Shown here piece after piece: positions 5,358-25,216 of a DNA stretch of 64,000 nucleotides (positions are counted from its first letter, which is position 1; every line of letters begins with the position of its first letter). The notes below the pieces were generated by a model. It was given only the letters and a program-made list of their open reading frames with translations, was not told the origin of the DNA and made no database searches. The position numbers were made by a program, and so were the translations under genes. Source of the DNA: Myxococcota bacterium (GTDB lineage: Bacteria; Myxococcota; XYA12-FULL-58-9; JALHOP01); the NCBI GenBank assembly GCA_022842935.1, contig JALHOP010000005.1, positions 275,307 to 339,306 on the forward strand, given 5' to 3'.

Positions 5358-6983
5358 TCACGGCGTCTTGCGTTCGATGCCAATCACCGAGGTCGCGCCT
5401 GTCGCGTGGTGCAGATGGAAAGCGACGGGTGGAGTTGGCTTCTCGGCGCCGGGACGCGTGACCCGGGCTTCGACGACCGCGGTTGTGGACGCAAGCTCGA
5501 CGCAGGCCCTGCCGCCTGCGGAGGCTGACACCAAGGTCCACGTGCCGTCGTCGAGACGGGCTTCGTAGCGCTGCGTTTCGGCGGTGAGGCGACCCGCGGT
5601 GACCATCGCGTCTTCGAAGCACAGGCGGGCAGCGTCGACCTCTGGATTCTCGAAGGACGCCATCGGTCTCAAATAGCGGTCGACGATGCGATTGCGGCGC
5701 TCGATCAGCACCACGCGTAGCCGCTCGCGATATGCGGCCTTCGAAAGCCTTGCGGAGTCGATGAGGGCGTCGATGTGCGCGTCGGTGAAGCGGGAGATGA
5801 TCTGGGCAGCCCAGTAGGCGTCTGCGTCGTCCATACGGATGAAGGCGACGTTTTGATAGCCACCTTTCCAGTCTTCCGGCGCGAAATGCTCGTAGTCGTA
5901 GTACCCCCAGAGCTCGGCGTCGGGATCCTTCTGGAGGTCCTCCCAGACGCGCTTGCGGAAGCCGAAGGTGAAGAGATCGGAGAATACGTCGGCGAAGTCG
6001 AAATAGTAGGAGTGGCCGAAACGTCGCGACATCTCGTCCGCGTCCCACATGCTGCCGAGCGTATCTCCGAAGTCGATGGTCCAGTGCTCGACCCACCCGA
6101 GCTCGCCGTCATCTGTCTTCATGAAGGTCGACAGGGTGTTCTGCTCGCGCGCGTCGAAGTGCTGCGTCCACGCCGCCATCAAGCGCGCGCCGCGCAGGTC
6201 GCGGCGATCCTCGTGGTCGAAGGCGTCGTTTGGGTCGTCACCCCGTTTACCCTGATAGGTCCATGGACCGATGGGCTTCCCGGTCACGAACATCGACGCG
6301 GAGGCGCGCAGCTTGCCGTCGGGCATGCGGACGGCGGTCTTCATGGCGCGGTCCAGATCCTCCTGGGTAAGCGGGATCTTGTTGTTGAAGCGGTCCGTCT
6401 TGGTGGCGTCGGGAGCGAGCTGCACGACTGACGCGTCGAAGCTCACCACGAAGTTGCATGGCACACTGGCGCCGAAGGCCCAGTACAGCTTCGAGCCGAT
6501 GACGTCACCCGTGGTGGCGCGCTCGGGCTGTTTGGTGCTGTCGAACTTCAACACGTACCGCTTGTGCGTGTTTGCGTCTTCGATGACGAAGCCGGGGTTG
6601 GCGCCGTCGACCTTGCCGCTCTTGGCGAGCCAGGGACCACCCGTGAGGTAGTCGTCTTCGGCGCAGGGTCCGCGAACGAGGCGCTCGGGCGAGATGCGGG
6701 TGCGCCCGATACGGTTCGTGAACCAGCTCGAGTTCGGGACCTCGCCGTGCGCGTTGACGTTGACAGCGGGACCGCCAACGTCGACGAGCAGCGCGCGATG
6801 AATGGGCAGGAAGACCATTTGGTCGGCCCCGTCCCAGTAGAGGGACGACCAGTACTCCTCGGGCTCCTTGATGGGGTGGCGGTCGTCGTCGCGCGTCACC
6901 AGCGGCACCGGCTTGAAGCTCCCCGGGTGGCTGGCGCAGGCGGTGGTGGTGGCGAGCAGAGAGGCGATTGCGATGCGCTTCAC
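5358..6983 (-). CDS. Lipoprotein with protein-kinase-like (HipA/PI3K-type) catalytic motifs
   Basis: This is a 541-residue lipoprotein started from GTG at 6983, one base after the barrel gene's stop; the longer upstream frame only overlaps that gene. The signal is MKRIAIASLLATTTAC with acylated Cys16. I do not know a named family. The sequence carries an ordered set of kinase-fold hallmarks: YVLKF with Lys146, an acid-bearing helix ending in a Gly-Ala-Ser-Val-Pro turn (160-175) like the 'lG..VP' turn of HipA-type kinases, HFDAREQN with His275, Asp277 and Asn282 (Asn at Asp+5 as in HRDxxxxN), and IDFGD with Asp304. The C-terminal ~120 residues look like a separate domain. Kinase activity and localisation on the outer membrane or periplasmic face are inference. 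Confidence 0.6.
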   Translation of the reverse strand: MKRIAIASLLATTTACASHPGSFKPVPLVTRDDDRHPIKEPEEYWSSLYWDGADQMVFLPIHRALLVDVGGPAVNVNAHGEVPNSSWFTNRIGRTRISPERLVRGPCAEDDYLTGGPWLAKSGKVDGANPGFVIEDANTHKRYVLKFDSTKQPERATTGDVIGSKLYWAFGASVPCNFVVSFDASVVQLAPDATKTDRFNNKIPLTQEDLDRAMKTAVRMPDGKLRASASMFVTGKPIGPWTYQGKRGDDPNDAFDHEDRRDLRGARLMAAWTQHFDAREQNTLSTFMKTDDGELGWVEHWTIDFGDTLGSMWDADEMSRRFGHSYYFDFADVFSDLFTFGFRKRVWEDLQKDPDAELWGYYDYEHFAPEDWKGGYQNVAFIRMDDADAYWAAQIISRFTDAHIDALIDSARLSKAAYRERLRVVLIERRNRIVDRYLRPMASFENPEVDAARLCFEDAMVTAGRLTAETQRYEARLDDGTWTLVSASAGGRACVELASTTAVVEARVTRPGAEKPTPPVAFHLHHATGATSVIGIERKTP

Positions 6984-6984
6984 G

Positions 6985-8538
6985 TCAAAATCCCACGTTG
7001 GTGCCAGCGAAGAATCGAAACTCCTCTGGCTCGGCGGACCACGTCTTGGTGCCAACGGCGACGAGGAGCTGGAACGACGCATCCCGCGACGTGTTCGTTC
7101 GCATCGCGAGACCGTAACTGCCACGTAGCTTCCTCACGTCGAAGTTCGAGAGGTGCCGATCCCAGACGTTACCCATCTCGTAGAAGAGGTTTGCGTCGAG
7201 GAACGACCAGATCGGCCAACGGTAGTCGATGGTCGCGACGGTCGCCGAGTCTCCTTGAAAACGCGCCCGCAAAAATCCGCGCATCACCTCCGGCCCGCCG
7301 AGGTTGACGAGCTCCATGAACGGCACGTCACGTCCCCGCGCTCGCTCGAGCAGCTCCACGTAGAGGCGGGCGCCGATGACGCGACGACGGTGGCCGCTGA
7401 CATCGACGAAGGCTGCCAGCTCTCCGCCGTAACGAAAGAAGCGGACGTTGTCCGCGCGACCGCCGAGCCCTTCACCGTAGCGGCCGAACACATCGAGGCG
7501 AGCCCCGGTCGAATCGGGTCGCCCTGGGGCGCGACTGTCGACGGAGATTAACGCCTTGATGCGCATCAAGGCGTAGCCGCTCGAGAAGTATGCCGCGTCG
7601 CCGGTCCGGCCGAGAGTGAAGCGGTCGTCGGCGGTGCCCTCGACGCTGTCGTCGCCGCAGATATCGGGACGGCGCGTCGTGCAGGAGAAATTGTTGTCGG
7701 AGACCTCGAGGGAGAGACGGCCACCGAGGTGGCTCAGGGCCTGTAGTGCGAAGTCATTGGTGGCGAAATCGCCGGACGAGATCCCCCCAGAGCTTGCGCT
7801 CGCGCTCGCCGCTTTGCCGGAACCAATGGCAAGCTCGAGCTCGGCGAACGGTTTGCTGCGCTCGAAGCGCGTGCGGTCTTCTTCGCCGCGCGCTACGTCA
7901 GTTCCGATGCCATAGAAGACGAGGTCGTCGCGCCGCTGGTATGCGGCGAGCATGTTGAGCTCGGCTGCGCGGTTGAGAGTGAAGCGGTTCAACACGCTGC
8001 CGATGATGTTTCGCTGAAAATCGGTGGACACGGCGGCTCTCACGACGTGCCAATCGACGAATAGTTTGTCCGCGAACGCGGATATCCCGAACCCGGGCTG
8101 CATGCCGTTTGCGATGCTGATGGTCGGGAAGAAGCCGATTGTGTGGTCGCGGAAGGTCAGTGCTTCGCGCAGGTTCGTCGCGATGTTGTAGCGATCGATG
8201 CCGCGCGTGACGAAGCCGATGGGCTGGCGAAGACCGAACTCGGTCACCAAGAACAATGGAAAGAGCACGACGCGCGCTGGCCACACCAAAGGCGAGGGCG
8301 ACCATTCGGGCTCGCGTGCATCGTACTCTGGCACCTCGCGCCGTTCGTCGAGCGGGCCAGCGTCCGGAACACGGGCCGGTGACAAGACCTGCTCGTCGTC
8401 GAGCAGTGCGGTTTCTGTGGCCGCGTCTTGCGTGAGGTCGGGCGAGGCAACGACGGCCGAGGCGGCCTCCGTATTGGCGGACGGCGTGTCGGGGGTGGCC
8501 TGCGCGAAGAAGACGAGCAGCAGTGTTGAGGTGGTCAG
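6985..8538 (-). CDS. Omp85/D15-type outer membrane barrel protein (probable CTG start)
   Basis: The protein resembles the C-terminal barrel of BamA/TamA-family (surface antigen D15) proteins. It has alternating strands throughout, a conserved VNLGGPEVMRGF-type stretch, YEMGNVWD near the end, and a C-terminal phenylalanine (RFFAGTNVGF) as expected of a BAM recognition signal. No POTRA repeats fit in the ~90 residues before the barrel. With ATG/GTG/TTG starts only, the frame begins at a TTG at 8385 and lacks a signal peptide. Reading upstream, the frame stays open and gives LTTSTLLLVFFAQA, a signal-like segment starting at CTG 8538 with AGGGA five bases before it. That gives 517 residues. Assigned partner: the lipoprotein one base downstream. 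Confidence 0.65.
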   Translation of the reverse strand: MTTSTLLLVFFAQATPDTPSANTEAASAVVASPDLTQDAATETALLDDEQVLSPARVPDAGPLDERREVPEYDAREPEWSPSPLVWPARVVLFPLFLVTEFGLRQPIGFVTRGIDRYNIATNLREALTFRDHTIGFFPTISIANGMQPGFGISAFADKLFVDWHVVRAAVSTDFQRNIIGSVLNRFTLNRAAELNMLAAYQRRDDLVFYGIGTDVARGEEDRTRFERSKPFAELELAIGSGKAASASASSGGISSGDFATNDFALQALSHLGGRLSLEVSDNNFSCTTRRPDICGDDSVEGTADDRFTLGRTGDAAYFSSGYALMRIKALISVDSRAPGRPDSTGARLDVFGRYGEGLGGRADNVRFFRYGGELAAFVDVSGHRRRVIGARLYVELLERARGRDVPFMELVNLGGPEVMRGFLRARFQGDSATVATIDYRWPIWSFLDANLFYEMGNVWDRHLSNFDVRKLRGSYGLAMRTNTSRDASFQLLVAVGTKTWSAEPEEFRFFAGTNVGF

Positions 8539-8546
8539 GCTAGTCC

Positions 8547-10952
8547 CTATTTGCTTTCAGAGGTCTCGCTCTCGGGAGGCTCGCGGCGCTTGGATGTCTT
8601 CTTGAGGGCGGTCAAGTTCATCACGATCGAGTCGCGCGACTTGAGCAGATCCTCGATGACCTGGCGCTGGTCGCGGGTCACTTGGCCTCTTGGCTTCTTC
8701 TTGGCTTCCTCGTCGACAGCGACGAGCGTGAGCACGGGCTCGCGTAGGTCGTCGGGCAAGACGCTGTCCAGGTACTCGAGCGAGAGCCCATGCAACGACG
8801 CGTCGTCGGTATGGATGCCTTGAAACGCGATGCGTACGTGCTGAGCGTCGAGGACGAGCGACAAGAGAGTGAAGACGTGCTCGAGGCCGCGGTCGAGTCG
8901 CTCTTCGAGGACCTCGCCAAGCAATGGGGCGTCGGTGTCCGGCAGGCGATCGACGATGGTCCGGCTCGCCACGAGCCGAGAGTCGCTCGCGACCGCGGCG
9001 CGGATAGCGTCGTAGATGCGCTCCGCGCCGACCTCGATGTCGGGCGTCTTGGCATGAATGCGTGCCAATGCGTCGGCGGCTCGATAGCGGATTTCGAAGC
9101 GTTTGTCGCCGAGCGCCTGTGTGAGTCCGTCGAAGGCGCGCTGCGAGGTCGCCGCGGCCAGGATGCGCGGCACGCGCCGACGTACGGAAAACTCTTCATC
9201 TTCGTCGAGCAATGCGTCGACGAGCGTACCCACGTAACGGTTTCCGAGGGTGCGGAGTGTCGCGACGACCTGGGGCGCCACGGCGTCCCACGCGAGTAAC
9301 GGGACAGCGGTCTGCACGGGCGGGCGGTCGATGGAACCGAACGACTTCAACGCCCGCTTCACGCGCGCGGGGTCACGTGAACGAAGGTCAGCCGTGAGCG
9401 CCACCACATTGTCCGTTGCGGCGTTGTGCTCCGACCCGAGCGGCGCGCCGGGCGCCATCGATGAGGGCACCGGCACGATCGACTGCAGCGACTGCATCGA
9501 CATGTTGATGGCGCTCTTCGACGCCGCTGCGACAGCCGCGTGCGTAAGCGAGTCTTTGCGTGCCCCCCCGATGGTCAGGGGCTGCCCGCTGAGCGGGTCA
9601 ACGGCATCGAGGCCATAGGCACGGTCGACCAAGCCTTGCTCGATGGCTTGTACATAGCCGGAACGCAGCCGGCTCGTGATGATGATCGCGATAACGTACA
9701 AGAATATGGTCACGCCCACGAGGAGCATTGCCACCTGCACGCTCATGGCTGCTGACACCGCCAACAGGCCCGAGATGATGCCGCCTCCGAGGGCGTCACC
9801 TGTGCGATCCACCACGACATCGTTGACCGACTTTGCCGGTCGCTTCTCGCGCGGCGGTATCGGCGTATAGTGCTGCTCGTAGCCGGCCCGAAACAGTGAG
9901 CTGTGAAGAGCCAACTCGCCACCACGCAGTACGGTCGCGGTCCACACTCCGGGGAAAACGAAGTTCAGGACGGCGCCGATGCCCGAGATGACTGGCAGGG
10001 TCCCCATGGTCACCGCGATGCCGAAGCGGTGCAGCATGCGCGAGCCGAGCAGCGCTTGCAGCAGGAAGGTCGCAAGGGAGGAGCTGGTGTAGAAGATGGC
10101 GAAGAAGCGCTGACGCTCGGCCTTCTCGACATACTCGGCGACGACAGCCGCCTTGAACACGTAGTCGAGCAGACCCGCCGCCGTCGTGGTCAGCAAAACC
10201 ATGGCCGCGAGGTTGCGCAGGTACCTGACGCGCAGGACGATGCCTAAGCCCGAGAGCATCGACTCACCCTTGGCGTCGTCGCGGTGAGCATCGCCAGGAC
10301 GTACCGCTTGCTCGACACTATTTGCTTCGGCCTGCGGCGCGGGAGGGCCGACGGAGCGCTTGTGGTGGCGCGTGATGAACCAGGTCAGGACGGCGCAGAC
10401 CATGTGAAACGCCGCCAGCACCGGGATGACGGACGCCGCGTCGAGGACCCCCGAGAGCCGTTCGGCAATTACGCCACCAATGAGCCCACCGAGGGTCGCG
10501 CCTCCGGCGATGCGGCTTACGTACATCTTCGCGGTATGCGCGTCGAATCGCTCGTTGATGAGCGACCAGAAACCCGAGATGAGCACTGCGCCGAGCGCCG
10601 CGAAGTGCAGATACAACGCGATCGCGGTGACCTTTGGGGCTGAGTTACGAAATGTCCACTCGGCCATCAAGAGACCGGCTGAAACAACGAAGCCCGCGGG
10701 GATGACACGGGCCGGGGACAGCACCCGTATGAAGCGACCTGCGGGGATCGCGAAGGCGACCGACGCGAAGGCAGCGCCGATGACGATCGTCGGCAGCGCT
10801 GTGACCTCGAAGCTCTCGAAGAACAGAGTATCGCGGATGACCTTGCTCGCGGTCTGGAAGGCGATCATGACCAGGGCGCAGAACGCGGCCAGTGTGGCTG
10901 CGGCGCGGTTTCCTGCCTGACGCGATGCCGAGCTATCCGCGCTAGCGCTCAT
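8547..10952 (-). CDS. ATP/ADP-translocase-like MFS transporter fused to HEAT-repeat domain
   Basis: This 801-residue protein has about twelve hydrophobic segments in residues 20-450. They resemble the nucleotide transporter (NTT/Tlc) branch of the major facilitator fold: TASKVIRDTLFFESF in helix 1, FWSLINERFDAHTAKMYVSRI around residues 130-150 and DALGGGIISGLLAV late. Residues ~470-540 are a flexible linker. Residues ~545-770 form HEAT-like helical repeats (LGDKRFEIRYRAADALARIHA is one), ending in a charged Lys/Glu tail. NTT proteins exchange ATP for ADP, but some relatives move other substrates, so the cargo is inferred. The stop overlaps the barrel gene's start region, and the Ser/Thr kinase gene ends 20 bases upstream. 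Confidence 0.7.
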   Translation of the reverse strand: MSASADSSASRQAGNRAAATLAAFCALVMIAFQTASKVIRDTLFFESFEVTALPTIVIGAAFASVAFAIPAGRFIRVLSPARVIPAGFVVSAGLLMAEWTFRNSAPKVTAIALYLHFAALGAVLISGFWSLINERFDAHTAKMYVSRIAGGATLGGLIGGVIAERLSGVLDAASVIPVLAAFHMVCAVLTWFITRHHKRSVGPPAPQAEANSVEQAVRPGDAHRDDAKGESMLSGLGIVLRVRYLRNLAAMVLLTTTAAGLLDYVFKAAVVAEYVEKAERQRFFAIFYTSSSLATFLLQALLGSRMLHRFGIAVTMGTLPVISGIGAVLNFVFPGVWTATVLRGGELALHSSLFRAGYEQHYTPIPPREKRPAKSVNDVVVDRTGDALGGGIISGLLAVSAAMSVQVAMLLVGVTIFLYVIAIIITSRLRSGYVQAIEQGLVDRAYGLDAVDPLSGQPLTIGGARKDSLTHAAVAAASKSAINMSMQSLQSIVPVPSSMAPGAPLGSEHNAATDNVVALTADLRSRDPARVKRALKSFGSIDRPPVQTAVPLLAWDAVAPQVVATLRTLGNRYVGTLVDALLDEDEEFSVRRRVPRILAAATSQRAFDGLTQALGDKRFEIRYRAADALARIHAKTPDIEVGAERIYDAIRAAVASDSRLVASRTIVDRLPDTDAPLLGEVLEERLDRGLEHVFTLLSLVLDAQHVRIAFQGIHTDDASLHGLSLEYLDSVLPDDLREPVLTLVAVDEEAKKKPRGQVTRDQRQVIEDLLKSRDSIVMNLTALKKTSKRREPPESETSESK

Positions 10953-10972
10953 CGCGGCTCACCGCTTGCTGT

Positions 10973-12301
10973 TCACTTTTCACTGCTCACCGCCGCTGCT
11001 TGCGCCACGGCGTCGTTCACGGCGCGGTCACGCACGGCGCTATCAGCACCGATCGCCGAGACCGACGGCACCTCGGGGACGTGCGCTTCCCACCAACGGC
11101 GGGCGCGCGCGAAGTTCCACGGGGCAGCAACCTTCACGGACAACAGCTCGTGGATGAGCTCGTCCATGGTCTGTGGGCGCTCGTCGGGGTCTTTCGCCAA
11201 GGTTCGCAAGACGGCTTCTTCGAGACCGGCGGGCAGCTCGACCTCGACATACTCGCGGAGGGACGGAGGCTTGGCGTTGACGTGTCGCACCAGCACCTCC
11301 ATCACGGTGTCGCCCTCGAACAAATTCTTGCCGGTGAGCAGCCAGAAGGCGACACACCCGAGCGAGTAAATGTCGGCGCGTGCATCGATGTTGATTTTGC
11401 CGAGCGCGACCTCGGGCGCCATGTAAGCGGGTGTGCCAGTGATGGTGCCGTCAGTCGTGACCGTTTGAGCGGTCACGTCGCGCGTACGGTCCTTGACCAA
11501 CCCGAAGTCGAGCACCTTCACGAAGTCGTACCGCATGCCGTAACGGCAAACGAAGATGTTGGCCGGCTTGACGTCGCGGTGCACGAGCCCGGCCTGATGA
11601 GCCTCGGCGAGCGACTCGGCGGCTTGCACGATGAGGTAGATGACGCGCGCGGGGTCGACCTGACCGTAACGCTCCACCATTTGTTCCATGGTGAAGCCGT
11701 TCAACAGCTCCATGACGTAGTAGAAATCGCCCGAATCCGCGATACCGAAGTCGAACAGCTGCACGGTGTGCGGGGAGGACAGCCGGGCGATGGCCTGCGC
11801 TTCGCGCGCAAACCGCACGCGCGCGGTTCCGACATCGGCGCTCGAGCCGCTGCCGGCGCCCATGGCCTGGGCCTTGATGAGCTTCACGGCAGCTGGGCGG
11901 GCGAGCAGGCGGTGCTTGGCGCTCCAAACCTCACCCATGCCGCCTTTACCAAGGAGGCGCTCGAGCGTGTAGCTGCCCATATTGGCGGACCCGCGGATGG
12001 TCGACACCAAGAGGTAGAGGTTACGCACCGAGACTCCCACGAGCACGAGCGCCACCGTACCCGTCGCGATCGCGAGGCTATGCGTCCAGTTGAGAACCAG
12101 GCCGTGGAGGTTGAGCGTCACCAGAGCGAGAACGAGCGAGGTGACCCAAAAAAACATGCCAGCAATCGCTAGGCGCCCGATGCGCTGGCCTCGGCGGACC
12201 ATCATTTCGGGGCGAATGTCGTCGCGCACTTCCGCGTTGACGGCGTCGGTCACCGTGCCGTGCGTCGGGATGAAATGCACTTCGCGGGGATTCTGGGTCA
12301 T
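10973..12301 (-). CDS. Membrane-anchored Ser/Thr protein kinase (Hanks type)
   Basis: This is a 442-residue kinase. I chose ATG 12301 (AGAG six bases before it) over a GTG at 12343 that lacks a ribosome site. Two membrane helices lie at about 43-63 and 75-95, so both ends are cytosolic. The kinase domain covers about 111-380 and is complete: LGKGGMGEVW (117-126), Lys140, Glu167 in helix C, HRDVKPAN with Asp243, DFG Asp265 and TGTPAYMAPE. A ~60-residue tail follows. It is therefore predicted active. Having the membrane pair before the kinase domain, with no extracellular sensor, is unusual compared with PknB-type kinases. It lies at the head of the transporter-barrel-lipoprotein set. Confidence 0.88.
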   Translation of the reverse strand: MTQNPREVHFIPTHGTVTDAVNAEVRDDIRPEMMVRRGQRIGRLAIAGMFFWVTSLVLALVTLNLHGLVLNWTHSLAIATGTVALVLVGVSVRNLYLLVSTIRGSANMGSYTLERLLGKGGMGEVWSAKHRLLARPAAVKLIKAQAMGAGSGSSADVGTARVRFAREAQAIARLSSPHTVQLFDFGIADSGDFYYVMELLNGFTMEQMVERYGQVDPARVIYLIVQAAESLAEAHQAGLVHRDVKPANIFVCRYGMRYDFVKVLDFGLVKDRTRDVTAQTVTTDGTITGTPAYMAPEVALGKINIDARADIYSLGCVAFWLLTGKNLFEGDTVMEVLVRHVNAKPPSLREYVEVELPAGLEEAVLRTLAKDPDERPQTMDELIHELLSVKVAAPWNFARARRWWEAHVPEVPSVSAIGADSAVRDRAVNDAVAQAAAVSSEK

Positions 12302-12390: not shown

Positions 12391-14256
12391 TCACCAGCCG
12401 CACTGATCGCCCTGGTTTGCCTCGTCGAGATAGGCGCGAAGCGGCGCGAAATATTCGGTAAGCGCCGATGCATCCATGGTTCGCTCCCCGGCGATGGCAA
12501 AGAGCGCGTCCGGCCACGGCTTCGATGCGCCCATTCTCAGCATCGTCGCGAGCTTTTCTCCGGCCGCGGCGTTACCGGCGATCGAGCAGGTGTGGAGCGG
12601 GCCCTGGTGCCCCGCGGCCCGACAGAGGGCCCGGTGAAACTGGAACTGCAGAATGTGCGCGAAGAAATACCGGGCATACGGCGTGTTCGCAGGCACGTGA
12701 TACTTGGCGCCGGCGTCGAAGTGCTCCTCGCCACGTGGGGAGGGCGGCGCAATGCCCTGGTACTGCGCTCGTAGCTTCCACCACGCTGCGTTGTAGCCGT
12801 CAGGCTTCACCGCGCCTGAGAACACCTGCCAGCGCCACTGGTCGATGACCTTGCCGAAGGGGAGGAAAGCGACGCGTTGTAAGGCGCGCTTCATCAACGT
12901 GTCGATGTCGGCCTTGGGATTGTTCGGAGTCTGCTGTAGCAGACCGAGACTCTTCAAGTAGGCAGGTGTCATCGAGAGCACCAGGGTGTCGCCGATGCCT
13001 TCGTGGAACCCTTCGTGCGCGCCCTGTTGGAACAGCGGCGGCAACTTTCCGTACATGAGGTAATAGTAGATGTGGCCGAGCTCGTGATGGATGGTCACCA
13101 GGTCTTCTTCCGTCGGCTCGGTGCACATCTTGATGCGTACGTCGCCCGTGAGCCCGATGTCCCAGGCGCTTGCGTGGCATACGACCTCGCGCCCCTTGGG
13201 CTTCTCGATGAGCGAGTGCTTCCAGAATGTTTCGGGAAGCGGGGGCAAACCGAGACCGGTGAAAAAGCTCTCGCCGGTGCGCATCATCTTCTCGGCGGTC
13301 CAGCGCTTCGTTTCGAGCGCCTTCGTGACATCGAGCTTGGCCTGCCCTGGGTAGGGCTCGACGAGCGGGTAGATGTTGCTCCAGTCTTGGGCCCACATGT
13401 TGCCAAGCACGTGCGCCGGGATCGGTCCGTGTTTGGGCACCCGCTCCTCGCCGTAGTGCGCTTGGAGCTTTCGACGCACGTAGCAATGAAGGGAGTCGTA
13501 GAACGGCTGCACTTGTGCCCACAGACGCTCGCTCTCCGCCTCGAGCGCCGCCGGAGGCATGTCGAACTTGGCGCGCCATAACTCACCAAGGTCTTTCCAG
13601 CCGATCGACTCGGCCCCCTTGTTTCCAAGTGTAACGAAGCGCGCGTACTTCTCGCGCATCGGTTTGGCGATGGCGTGCCAGCCGTTCCAGACGTCGAGCA
13701 GCTCGTCATAGTCGCGGCTCGTCGCGAGCACCTTCGACAGCTCTCCCAGAGTGCGACACTTCTCACCCGAGGCTGTTTGCTGGCAGTACTTTCCCGTCCC
13801 GTACATGCTGTTCATGTCGGTGGCGAGCGTCGCAAGCTCACGTCGCTCTTCGGGCGCGGGTGGTGAGGGCAGGACCGTATTGATGCGCAAGAGATGAAGC
13901 TTGCGGGCGGCTTCTTCAGAAAGCTCGACGCCTTGATAGCGCGCCGCTTGCTGGACCAGCTCCGTGGTAAGCGCCATGTCGCGCTCGGCTGCGCGTGTGG
14001 CGAGAAAGTCCGTGTCGTCGGTGATGAAGGTCTGGTTCACCCACTGAGCGTGATCGCTCTCGGCAATCTGCTCGTGCCAGCGCGTCTCGGCGTCTACGAT
14101 GAAGCGAGCCGCGCTTTCCGCGCTTGGTGCCGCTACAGCGGACGGATTCCGTGGCTCCCGCGGCGCCGAGGGTAGCGGGGTTGGTGTCTTATCGGTGGGG
14201 TCGCTGCCGCCACAGGCGATCAGTGTCGTGACGCAGAGCAGAAGAGCACGTTGCAT
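12391..14256 (-). CDS. M2-family peptidyl-dipeptidase lipoprotein (ACE-like)
   Basis: This 621-residue zinc peptidase is of the angiotensin-converting-enzyme family (M2), removing C-terminal dipeptides. The signal MQRALLLCVTTLIAC gives a lipobox (L-I-A-Cys15), so it is lipid-anchored in the periplasm or on the outer membrane. The zinc site HELGH is at residues 391-395, and the downstream EGFHEGIGDT supplies the third ligand Glu, as in ACE. The N-terminal helical 'lid' region (residues ~50-200) is present, and the length fits the single-domain bacterial enzymes. It sits 9 bases after the RND pump gene, so it is probably in the efflux operon. The natural peptide substrate is unknown. Confidence 0.88.
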   Translation of the reverse strand: MQRALLLCVTTLIACGGSDPTDKTPTPLPSAPREPRNPSAVAAPSAESAARFIVDAETRWHEQIAESDHAQWVNQTFITDDTDFLATRAAERDMALTTELVQQAARYQGVELSEEAARKLHLLRINTVLPSPPAPEERRELATLATDMNSMYGTGKYCQQTASGEKCRTLGELSKVLATSRDYDELLDVWNGWHAIAKPMREKYARFVTLGNKGAESIGWKDLGELWRAKFDMPPAALEAESERLWAQVQPFYDSLHCYVRRKLQAHYGEERVPKHGPIPAHVLGNMWAQDWSNIYPLVEPYPGQAKLDVTKALETKRWTAEKMMRTGESFFTGLGLPPLPETFWKHSLIEKPKGREVVCHASAWDIGLTGDVRIKMCTEPTEEDLVTIHHELGHIYYYLMYGKLPPLFQQGAHEGFHEGIGDTLVLSMTPAYLKSLGLLQQTPNNPKADIDTLMKRALQRVAFLPFGKVIDQWRWQVFSGAVKPDGYNAAWWKLRAQYQGIAPPSPRGEEHFDAGAKYHVPANTPYARYFFAHILQFQFHRALCRAAGHQGPLHTCSIAGNAAAGEKLATMLRMGASKPWPDALFAIAGERTMDASALTEYFAPLRAYLDEANQGDQCGW

Positions 14257-21585: not shown

Positions 21586-23499
21586 TTACGGGCAGACGCA
21601 ATCTGGGGCAGGCGTGGCTTCGATCTCGGGTTGCGTTGTCAGGGCCGCGAGCTCTCCAGGGCTCAAGCGAGCGCCCGCGCGCCAAGCGTCGGCGCGCTTT
21701 GGGTCGTTTTGTTGCCAGGCTGCATACATGCGCGCGCGCGTCGCCTCGCGTGTCTTGGCGTCGGCGATCTGGTCGACGTACCCCATGGCCGTCTCGGGGT
21801 CCTCGTAAAGCGAGTTCTCGCCGAGCTCTTGGTAGGCCGTGTCGCGGTTCTTGCCACGTGGTAGACCACTCGCCCAGGCTGCGGCTCGTCGCGGGTCGTT
21901 TGCGGCCCATACGCTCACCACTTGGTCGAAGCTACCTTGGCCTCCTCGGCCTTGCTGCATGGCCCACTCGACCGCCGACTGCGGATCGGTCGACGCCCAG
22001 GTGAGCGCGAGGTCGCGTTTGGCGGCCTCGTCGCCGCGTGACTCCACCCAGGCTGCCGCGGCGACGGGGTCAGCATCGGCCCAGGTCGACGCGATCATGC
22101 TGGAGGCTTGCTGCTTGGCTTCGCCGTCAGGGAGACGTTCCACCCAGCGTACGGCCGCCTGCGGGTCCATCTCGGTCCATGAGCGCGCAATGTCGGCGGT
22201 TGCGCGACTCAACGTGGGCGCATCGTCGAGCTCAGTGAGGGCTTCGGCGGCCGCCATGGGATTGGTGCGGGCGAGCGAGCCGATGACGCTGGCAACGACT
22301 TCGTCTTTCTCCCTCCCCGCGGGAAGGTCTTGGGCGGAACGCCATGCAAGCTCCGGCTCGCGGTCCGCCCAAGCTGAAATTACGGTCGCCATGTTGCGGC
22401 TGCGCTGTTTGGGGTCGTCGATTGACCTGGCGAGCTCCAGCGCACTCGTCGGATCGTCGTATTGCACGCTACTAACGAGCCCCTCGAGTGCTAGGGTTCT
22501 GTCGTTGTCCTCGAGGCTCGCCGCCCAGCGTTTGGCTGCCTCGCGGTCCTGGCTCGCCCAGCGCATCGCCAGCGCGCCGATGATGCCGTCACGCTCCCTG
22601 CCGTCGTCGAGCTTCGCGATGTAGCTCGCCGCGAGGTCGGGACGCTCCGAGGCAACCGAGCCAAAAGCGGTCTGCAGCACGTCCGCCATGCCGCGCTCCG
22701 CGTTGTGCTTTACCGCCCAGTCGAGAGCGGCGGCCGGGTCGTTCTCGACCCAGCCCGACATAATCGACTCGAGGGCCTGGTTGCGGTTCTTGCCCTCGGG
22801 CATCGTCATTGCGGCTTTCAGCGCACTGTCGAGATCGTTCCGGGCCCAGGTCGCGAAGATGGCTCTCGACTCGGCTGCGGCATTGCCCGGAGGCAGCGTC
22901 GCGGCGACGCGGAGCGCGCGCTCCGGATCGACCTGCGCCGTCGCAGCTAGCACGACCGCGGCACACTGCGTGCGCAGGGGACCAGGCGAGAGGCCATCGA
23001 CGAACTTCGACGCCGCAGTGAGATCCGCATCGGCCCAAGAGTGAAACGTCGTGCCGACGCCAAGGGCTTGAACCCCGAGATCCGTAACCGATGCACTATG
23101 GCGGACGGCGGCCTCCGGGTCGCCTTCGGCCCACATGTCGAGCACCATTACGTACAGCCCTTGGATCGAGTTGTCGTGGGCGAGCGGCGCGAGCTTAGGC
23201 GCAAGCTCCGGGCCATCGGCTGGCTCGATGTGCTGCACGATTTCCATGGCGGCCTCGCGGCGTTTGGCGAGGCTCGGGATGCGCGTGAGCTCGCTGACCG
23301 CCTGCATGACGCGCTCGACGGTCCATATCTCGGGCGGCGCTTCGTTCGGAGCTCCGTCTGGGCCAATGGCGGGATGCGGGGCCCATCGACTCGCGTGGGT
23401 CGGTCTTACCTCACGGGCGCGCTTGTGCGCCGGCCAAAGGAAATGACCAGCGACGAAGCCTACCGCGAGGGCCACCGCGGCGAGGACGACGTGTTTCAT
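21586..23499 (-). CDS. Membrane-anchored alpha-solenoid protein with ~16 W..DP..A repeats
   Basis: This is a 637-residue protein. I start it at ATG 23499, where MKHVVLAAVALAVGFVAGHF forms one N-terminal membrane anchor; the upstream extension has no such feature. From about residue 110 to 620 it is built of roughly sixteen helical repeats of 28-36 residues. The core pattern is W-A-x-x-D-P-x-x-A-x-x-W-x-x-x-L-P-x-G-x-x-R, for example WTEMDPQAAVRWVERLPDG and WAANDPRRAAAWASGLPRG. This resembles TPR/Sel1-like solenoids used for protein binding. The C-terminus ends DCVCP. No catalytic motif is visible. It is divergent from the M49-like peptidase gene. Function unknown; a periplasmic scaffold is plausible. 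Confidence 0.65.
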   Translation of the reverse strand: MKHVVLAAVALAVGFVAGHFLWPAHKRAREVRPTHASRWAPHPAIGPDGAPNEAPPEIWTVERVMQAVSELTRIPSLAKRREAAMEIVQHIEPADGPELAPKLAPLAHDNSIQGLYVMVLDMWAEGDPEAAVRHSASVTDLGVQALGVGTTFHSWADADLTAASKFVDGLSPGPLRTQCAAVVLAATAQVDPERALRVAATLPPGNAAAESRAIFATWARNDLDSALKAAMTMPEGKNRNQALESIMSGWVENDPAAALDWAVKHNAERGMADVLQTAFGSVASERPDLAASYIAKLDDGRERDGIIGALAMRWASQDREAAKRWAASLEDNDRTLALEGLVSSVQYDDPTSALELARSIDDPKQRSRNMATVISAWADREPELAWRSAQDLPAGREKDEVVASVIGSLARTNPMAAAEALTELDDAPTLSRATADIARSWTEMDPQAAVRWVERLPDGEAKQQASSMIASTWADADPVAAAAWVESRGDEAAKRDLALTWASTDPQSAVEWAMQQGRGGQGSFDQVVSVWAANDPRRAAAWASGLPRGKNRDTAYQELGENSLYEDPETAMGYVDQIADAKTREATRARMYAAWQQNDPKRADAWRAGARLSPGELAALTTQPEIEATPAPDCVCP

Positions 23500-23569
23500 G
23501 TGACGAGACGATAACATGCGGACGCGCGACTTGACTCCTGTCGCGGCGGCGGCCCAGATCCGGACCGCC

Positions 23570-25216
23570 ATGATGAATATTCTCTTGCCGCTTGCGTTGC
23601 TTGGCGCGCCCGATGTCTCGGCGCTCAACAAGATGTCCGCGCGCTTCGCGCCCGTCGAGCTGAAGGTCGACGTCTCGGCCCTGCCCGCGAGCGAGAGGGC
23701 TGTGCTCGCCAAGCTCGTGCAGGCCTCGCGCATCATTGACTCTCTGTTTCTGCGGCAGGTGTGGGGAGGCAATAGCGGGTTGTTGCTCGAGCTGATGCGC
23801 GACACGTCGGCCGCCGGCAAAGCGAGGCTCGACTACTTCTTGCTCAACAAGGGCCCATGGTCGCGGCTCGACAACGAGATGGCCTTCGTGGACGGCGTCG
23901 GTGAGAAGCCGCACGCTGCGGCGTTTTATCCTGCCCGGGCCACCAAAGACGAGCTCGAGGCATGGTTCAAGGCGTTGCCAGAGGCGGAGCGCAAGAGCGC
24001 GCAAGGCTTCTTCACGACCATCCGACGTTTGCCCAACGGAAAGCTGACAAGCATTCCTTACAGCGTCGAATACCAACCCGAGCTGCACCAGGTGGCGGCG
24101 CTGCTCATGCAAGCGGCGGATCTGACGACGCAACCCTCTCTGAAGAACTACCTGACCGCGCGGGCGGCCGCCTTGCTCTCCAACGACTACTACGCAAGCG
24201 ACGTCGCCTGGATGGAGCTGGACGCCACGGTCGAGCCGACCATTGGCCCGTACGAGGTCTACGAAGATGGGTGGTTCAACGCCAAGGCCGCCTTCGAGTC
24301 GTTCGTTACTGTCCGCGATGACGCCGAGACCGCCAAGCTCGCGAAGCTCTCCGGGGAACTGCAGGGCCTCGAGAACGAGCTGCCCATCGACCCCAAGTAC
24401 CGTAACGCAAAGCTTGGGGCGCTGGCGCCGATTCGGGTGGTGAACTCCATCTTCGGGGCCGGCGACGCCAACCGGGGGGTCCAGACGGCCGCGTTCAATC
24501 TGCCCAACGACGAGCGCGTCACGAAGGAGAAGGGCGCTAAACGCGTCATGCTCAAGAACGTTCAAGAAGCGAAGTTTGCCAAGGTCCTCACCCCCATCGC
24601 GCGCATCGCTTTGTCGCCCGCAGATCGGTCGCGCGTCGCCTTCGACGCTTTCTTCACGCACATCCTGATGCATGAGCTCATGCACGGTCTCGGACCGCAC
24701 GACATCCAGGTGAACGGAAAGCCGTCGACCGTGCGCGCCGAGCTCAAGGAGCTCTACAGCCCCATCGAGGAGGCTAAAGCGGACATCTCCGGCCTGTGGG
24801 CCATGCAGAGGCTCATCGACAAAGGCGCGCTACCCAAGGATCTCGAGCGTAGCATGTATGTCACTTACCTCGCGTCGAGCTTTCGCTCGGTGCGGTTCGG
24901 CTTGAGCGAAGCGCATGGCAAGGGAGTCGCCATGCAGCTCAATGCGTTACTGGACGCGGGCGCCTTCGTCGTAAAGGGCAATGCGTTCACCGTCGACGAC
25001 ACGAAGGTGAAGGATGCGGTGCGAGACCTCACCACCAAGCTCATGACCATTCAGGCCACCGGAGACAGGGCTGCTGCGGCGTCGCTCCTCGAGAGGCAGG
25101 CCGTCATCCGTCCCGAAGTGAAGAAGGTCCTCGACCAGCTCGCCAGTGTACCTGTCGATATCGCGCCGAAGTTCGTCACCGCCGAGAAGCTCGTGCTCGA
25201 GGCTACACCGAAGTGA
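23570..25216 (+). CDS. M49 (dipeptidyl peptidase III-like) zinc peptidase
   Basis: This is a 548-residue protein if started at ATG 23570, which gives a short signal-like MMNILLPLALLGAPDVSA; an ATG at 23516 is possible. The zinc site is HELMH at residues 368-372 followed by GLGPH. The second motif EEAKAD at 400-405 supplies the third ligand, matching the EECRAD motif of dipeptidyl peptidase III. Classical DPP III has HExxGH with one extra residue; this protein has plain HExxH, as in the DPP III-like domains fused to some plant Nudix enzymes. The upstream helical domain (residues 30-300) fits the family. It is probably exported. It overlaps the amidohydrolase gene by 4 bases. Confidence 0.7.
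   Translation: MMNILLPLALLGAPDVSALNKMSARFAPVELKVDVSALPASERAVLAKLVQASRIIDSLFLRQVWGGNSGLLLELMRDTSAAGKARLDYFLLNKGPWSRLDNEMAFVDGVGEKPHAAAFYPARATKDELEAWFKALPEAERKSAQGFFTTIRRLPNGKLTSIPYSVEYQPELHQVAALLMQAADLTTQPSLKNYLTARAAALLSNDYYASDVAWMELDATVEPTIGPYEVYEDGWFNAKAAFESFVTVRDDAETAKLAKLSGELQGLENELPIDPKYRNAKLGALAPIRVVNSIFGAGDANRGVQTAAFNLPNDERVTKEKGAKRVMLKNVQEAKFAKVLTPIARIALSPADRSRVAFDAFFTHILMHELMHGLGPHDIQVNGKPSTVRAELKELYSPIEEAKADISGLWAMQRLIDKGALPKDLERSMYVTYLASSFRSVRFGLSEAHGKGVAMQLNALLDAGAFVVKGNAFTVDDTKVKDAVRDLTTKLMTIQATGDRAAAASLLERQAVIRPEVKKVLDQLASVPVDIAPKFVTAEKLVLEATPK

Follow-up and report, generated by a model that had tools for sequence, protein, structure and literature searches.

An exported kinase-fold lipoprotein with Omp85, NTT-type and Hanks kinase partners points to an undescribed envelope-modifying system in two bacterial phyla

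The window, by which we mean the whole 64,000-nucleotide stretch of Myxococcota DNA that was analysed, carries on its minus strand four packed genes in the order Hanks kinase, NTT-HEAT carrier, Omp85 barrel and lipoprotein. The gaps are 20 bases between kinase and carrier, about 8 between carrier and barrel and 1 between barrel and lipoprotein, in agreement with a preliminary description of this DNA that had given 20, -9 to +8 and 1 bases; its range for the second gap is fair, because a CTG at 8538 gives +8. The open frame of the barrel gene (window 6985-8556, minus strand) has no ATG, GTG or TTG before 8385, and a signal-peptide-like start is expected near 8538; judged by sequence, the gene probably starts at the CTG at 8538, which would open the signal peptide LTTSTLLLVFFAQA. 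The features are as follows, in window coordinates.

5358 to 6983, minus strand: exported kinase-fold lipoprotein, 541 aa, with a GTG start and lipobox Cys16
5649 to 6659, minus strand: predicted kinase-fold domain, residues about 109-445 (VIA-align to CtkA over model residues 109-447), with the Gly127/Gly131 loop, Lys146, Asp277, Asn282 and Asp304
6192 to 6239, minus strand: family signature DDPND..H..RR.LR, residues 249-264, in 95 of 95 relatives
6138 to 6155, minus strand: catalytic loop from Asp277 to Asn282, within HFDAREQN (D277 in 87 and N282 in 91 of 95)
6072 to 6074, minus strand: metal-binding type Asp304, within DFGD (92 of 95)
5361 to 5663, minus strand: C-terminal beta-sandwich, residues 441-541 (model strands 444-538)
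6985 to 8538, minus strand: POTRA-less Omp85 barrel with 16 predicted strands and an MRGF (L6-type) motif, from PF01103 and the model; putative start codon
8547 to 10952, minus strand: NTT-type MFS carrier with a C-terminal HEAT tail, 801 aa (PF03219, PF07690, HEAT_2)
10973 to 12301, minus strand: membrane-anchored Hanks-type Ser/Thr kinase (PF00069, 5.9e-39), with N-terminal hydrophobic segments followed by the kinase domain at 111-384

Upstream of the Hanks kinase, at a distance of 90 bases, lies the gene of an M2 peptidase of the angiotensin-converting-enzyme type whose start resembles a lipobox (window 12391-14256, minus strand); it was considered as a fifth cassette member and rejected, since it does not recur at other loci. 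The same strand encodes, at 21586-23820, a protein with many degenerate WAxxDPxAAxxWxxxL repeats behind an N-terminal hydrophobic segment. A role in anti-phage defence was also set aside: PADLOC matched neither the kinase-fold protein nor the barrel, and its hits to the Hanks kinase reflect generic kinase similarity.

The lipoprotein has a signal peptide with the lipobox LLATTTACAS, and in a Myxococcota-rich alignment Cys16 is conserved at a level of at least 90%. Export signals are general among its relatives, taking the form of a lipobox in Myxococcota and of an ordinary signal peptide without a lipobox in most Acidobacteriota. The protein belongs to no Pfam family and to no meaningful NCBIfam family. 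When 18 family members were compared with the Pfam HipA models, only HipA_2 (0.054) and HipA_C (0.23) appeared, in one member each; the Pfam models of Fam20-type kinases gave no sequence match from the family, and a PDB profile search returned armadillo-repeat matches, no single stretch of which was significant, and a weak match to the CtkA tail (0.13).

An AlphaFold2 model built from 18 sequences (mean pLDDT 86.5, pTM 0.87) has a two-lobe kinase fold. Comparison with solved structures gave Z 13.3 for CtkA (rmsd 4.4 over 238 residues), 12.6 for Fam20C1, 12.5 for PI4KII-alpha and 9-11 for HipT/HipA, and Foldseek ranked Fam20C at the top (4kqa, E 1.9e-4), with CtkA in third place at a probability of 1.00. 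In the model, Lys146 ends the third strand of the N-lobe (142-147), Asp277 lies between helix 261-272 and strand 283-289, and Asp304 directly follows strand 296-302, a placement that gives the kinase order. The preliminary description had read kinase signatures in Lys146, HFDAREQN (Asp277, Asn282) and DFGD (Asp304) and had proposed that structure prediction be used to check the fold; the residues lie where it had put them and are conserved in relatives, and the predicted fold agrees. From the model we conclude with confidence that the lipoprotein is a kinase-fold protein. Its beta-sandwich at 441-541 gave FnIII/CBM56-like matches with Z of about 7, too weak for naming.

Searching with the protein revealed another copy in the genome to which the window belongs; of 195 Myxococcota genomes, 7 contain relatives, this genome included. 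A profile made from the Myxococcota relatives retrieved full-length relatives from 59 of 396 Acidobacteriota genomes, often two or three from each. The 98 kinase-fold genes collected from the two phyla include 95 whose products align well. The proteins of Myxococcota and Acidobacteriota separate in the tree with a local support of 97, so recent horizontal transfer between the phyla is not seen. The second copy in the window's genome (G000:C13:29729-32226, L032) is again an Omp85 and kinase-fold lipoprotein pair, with no NTT gene nearby, and one locus of Acidobacteria AH-259-O06 (L111) is a tandem duplicate array, Omp85-kinase-Omp85-kinase. Three smaller exported proteins of Acidobacteriota (L172 625-1605, L173 583-1650 and L176 84-2294), with WDLKxxNN-type and DVG motifs and no Pfam match, are by their sequences relatives, and point to a larger clan of exported proteins with this fold in the phylum.

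The signature DDxND..H...R..R is present in all 95 aligned members, with D249, D250, N252, D253, H257, R261 and R264 invariant. K146 is kept in 74 of the 95, D277 in 87, N282 in 91 and D304 in 92; Asp277, Asn282 and Asp304 (D-N-D) are intact together in 85, and together with Lys146 in 71. In both phyla most members have D-N-D intact, and the catalytic residues claimed for the window protein are thus retained in its homologues. Because 24 of the 95 members miss one of the four residues, the main rival to an active enzyme is a pseudokinase, an exported protein that carries out no phosphotransfer but senses a nucleotide or serves as a scaffold, regulating or docking on the Omp85 barrel. Lys146 is replaced in 21 members and one of Asp/Asn/Asp is missing in 10, and the signature is more conserved than the catalytic residues, all of which such a protein would accommodate. 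The same holds for six Acidobacteriota copies in which some 480-670 further residues are fused at the C-terminus (L118 6706-10203, L131 7474-10905, L133, L134, L135 and L138; no Pfam match in the two regions scanned), five of which have lost Asp277 and therefore look like pseudokinases. However, a pure scaffold would not need the D-N-D residues that most members of both phyla keep, and we regard the pseudokinase explanation as unlikely.

To describe the neighbourhoods, all adjacent open frames at 59 loci were clustered with no prior choice of family, frames antisense to recurrent families being left aside. Only four families recurred: the kinase-fold protein (59 loci), Omp85 (52), NTT (22) and the Hanks kinase (13). 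After these, the most frequent real family was a histidine kinase, at 8 of the 59. Among the 98 kinase-fold genes, 84 have enough upstream sequence to show the adjacent gene, which in 82 of these is an Omp85 gene in the same orientation. An NTT-family gene was found within 5 kb in 23 of the 45 loci for which 5 kb are available to either side, as against a chance expectation of about 1-2% per locus (binomial p < 1e-25 even at a generous background); roughly half of the loci lack an NTT neighbour. These two frequencies reject chance adjacency. The NTT linkage is scattered over the tree and needs at least 17 changes, which argues that it is not one inherited accident. Co-occurrence at the level of genomes follows the same direction: NTT genes are present in 54 of 59 Acidobacteriota genomes with a kinase-fold gene and in 70 of 337 without (p 5e-26), and in 7 of 7 against 82 of 188 in Myxococcota (p 0.004), kinship being ignored in both p values; the search found none in 5 of the 59 kinase-fold-positive Acidobacteriota genomes.

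The window Hanks kinase, with its motifs VHRDVKPAN (HRD) and LDFG (DFG), has close relatives at 13 further loci that are 42-52% identical and have a hydrophobic N-terminus. At 9 of these 13 the relative stands immediately before an NTT-HEAT gene on the same strand whose product has a tail of 330-390 residues, and the four-gene cassette recurs at ten loci in all, the window counted. The full cassette is present, for instance, at L120 and L122, in single-contig Acidobacteriota genomes of 6.47 and 7.48 Mb. A plain enrichment of Hanks kinases was rejected as an argument: the remaining Hanks kinases in these neighbourhoods share just 26-35% identity and could be background, and the 42-52% set alone was counted. 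With the Omp85 pairing, the NTT linkage and the ten four-gene loci, the conserved adjacency, which the preliminary description had suggested looking for in other Myxococcota, is borne out in other genomes.

The barrel matches PF01103 (7.8e-13), and its model (38 sequences, pLDDT 71.9) has 16 strands preceded by a low-confidence linker and helices with no POTRA fold. It had been described as a POTRA-less Omp85 protein, and with nothing but linker and helices ahead of the barrel it is at most a barrel-only member of the family, for which a BAM role is unlikely. The model matches the BamA barrel (E 1.8e-13), with 6t1w, the complex of BamA and the lipoprotein RcsF, second in the list, and the L6-type RGF motif is conserved (R in 36 and G in 34 of 38). 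The barrel might thus be an exit route or a holder that places the kinase-fold protein outside, as BamA holds RcsF, with the enzyme acting extracellularly. The near-obligate pairing, which holds even where the NTT and Hanks kinase genes are missing, the BamA-like barrel with its RGF motif and the absence of POTRA domains are all consistent with such surface display, but the barrel could equally be a substrate or an unrelated pore, and the BamA-RcsF complex is a fitting comparison for a barrel and a lipoprotein, no more. We give surface display tentative credence as a real possibility; it is compatible with an envelope system and does not compete with it.

The window carrier matches PF03219 TLC (1.3e-12, 47.7 bits against a cut-off of 21) and also PF07690, and a profile of the linked carriers matches two NTT structures, 9j3n at 8.5e-42 and that of Arabidopsis NTT1 (9j3j) at 9.1e-36; by these matches the linked carriers are true NTT homologues. 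The HEAT tail that had been proposed for the window protein is present C-terminally as HEAT_2 at 577-655 (E 1.4e-5), slightly below the Pfam cut-off, which the carriers of L101, L108, L026 and L095 exceed. Work on AtNTT1 connects K155 with the binding of ADP, K527 with that of ATP and E245 with translocation; in its K155 and K527 mutants, ADP or ATP binding is lost or weakened (PMC3306366). The corresponding residues were mapped through a multiple alignment that shows K-E-E-K in each of the two control sequences; a numbering offset of 84 was adopted because it sets all four residues correctly at once. At K155, E245, E385 and K527 the window carrier has V, A, D and D, an acidic residue being kept only at E385. 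Without equivalents of K155, E245 and K527, ATP/ADP exchange by this carrier is doubtful. The earlier term 'nucleotide exchanger' thus stands as to the family, which backs a link to nucleotide transport, and is weakened as to the activity, since three of the four charged residues of ATP/ADP exchange are missing.

Kinases outside the cytoplasm face little or no ATP. On a strict analogy with Fam20 kinases, the NTT-family carrier would swap ATP out for ADP and this ATP would be the donor for the exported kinase. Such a supply would account for the linkage and co-occurrence of the NTT genes with the kinase-fold gene, agrees with the strong NTT homology, and is suited to the four of 49 linked carriers, all beside kinase-fold genes, that keep all four charges as K-D-D-K (L010 138-1439, L101, L146 and L157). 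Against it stand the residues of the window carrier, the loss of at least two of the four charges in 45 of the 49 linked NTTs and the binding defects of the AtNTT1 mutants, and we consider it rather unlikely. Alternatively, the carrier may move a different substrate, such as a glycan or lipid building block, which the exported enzyme phosphorylates or uses. The site of K527 is Asp in 30 of the 49 linked carriers, a charge swap that goes beyond mere loss, and the C-terminal beta-sandwich of the lipoprotein has a weak likeness to FnIII and carbohydrate-binding domains. However, the genes that recur in the 59 clustered neighbourhoods include none for substrate synthesis, and we find a non-nucleotide substrate improbable.

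Taken together, these data suggest, with somewhat better than even confidence on our part, a conserved envelope system built around the exported kinase-fold enzyme, with the barrel, the NTT carriers and the membrane Hanks kinase in the same pathway. The four-gene set is likely to be an extracytoplasmic phosphotransfer system, and its recurrence in two phyla points to an undescribed envelope-modifying system. We propose that the kinase-fold protein leaves the cytoplasm by way of its lipobox in Myxococcota, or mostly an ordinary signal peptide in Acidobacteriota, and would act at or near the outer membrane with its operon partner, the POTRA-less Omp85 barrel. There it would most likely move a phosphate or nucleotide group onto a protein or glycan of the envelope. 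Inner-membrane proteins may serve the enzyme: NTT-family carriers, joined in one version of the cassette by the membrane Hanks kinase. The carriers would bring the donor or a related substrate across the inner membrane, and the Hanks kinase probably regulates the adjoining NTT-HEAT carrier. The extracytoplasmic kinase pathway with a nucleotide supply that the preliminary description had put forward therefore keeps its first part, an exported kinase-fold system well supported by fold, residues and linkage, and its second part, ATP from the window carrier, is doubtful. A dedicated bacterial form of extracytoplasmic phosphorylation, in which an outer-membrane kinase with its Omp85 barrel is fed donor by NTT carriers of its own under control of a membrane Hanks kinase from the cytoplasm, is a speculative proposal that we would sooner doubt than accept; if true, it would give the NTT-HEAT proteins of free-living bacteria their first role. 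A widespread operon that joins an exported kinase-fold protein and barrel to NTT-type carriers makes the question of ATP supply directly testable in bacteria.

The lipoprotein has the overall kinase fold of CtkA of Helicobacter pylori and of HipA/HipT in common, with the order P-loop, Lys, D-x4-N, D. Unlike the lipoprotein, those proteins are cytoplasmic or, as with CtkA (PMC5536186), dependent on type IV secretion, and have no barrel or NTT partner. The secretory-pathway kinases Fam20C and Fam20A are similar in placing a kinase fold outside the cytosol and provide the top Foldseek match (4kqa), whereas the lipoprotein is bacterial, has a lipobox and an Omp85 partner, gives no sequence match at the Pfam level and has a donor supply that is only proposed. 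The family lacks a Pfam or NCBIfam model, and the comparison did not extend by sequence to catalogues of kinase-like proteins such as KINtaro (PMC10870513). The window barrel shares the 16-strand barrel and RGF motif of the Omp85 superfamily members BamA and TamA and differs in having no POTRA domains and a dedicated pairing with one exported protein. The window Hanks kinase has the domain of PknB-type membrane Ser/Thr kinases, with HRDVKPAN and DFG, but N-terminal hydrophobic segments, no PASTA domains and an NTT-HEAT partner. Fusions of an NTT domain to C-terminal HEAT repeats have been described in free-living bacteria with function unknown (Major et al. 2017, PMC5381601); the window-type carriers differ from these in their association with an exported kinase-fold protein and with a membrane Hanks kinase and, in most linked carriers, in the loss of the canonical charged residues, and the cassette is a first functional context for the NTT and NTT-HEAT proteins of such bacteria. 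No description of this combination turned up in the open literature; the kinase fold is of a known kind, as are three of the four partners, and the system as a whole may prove new.
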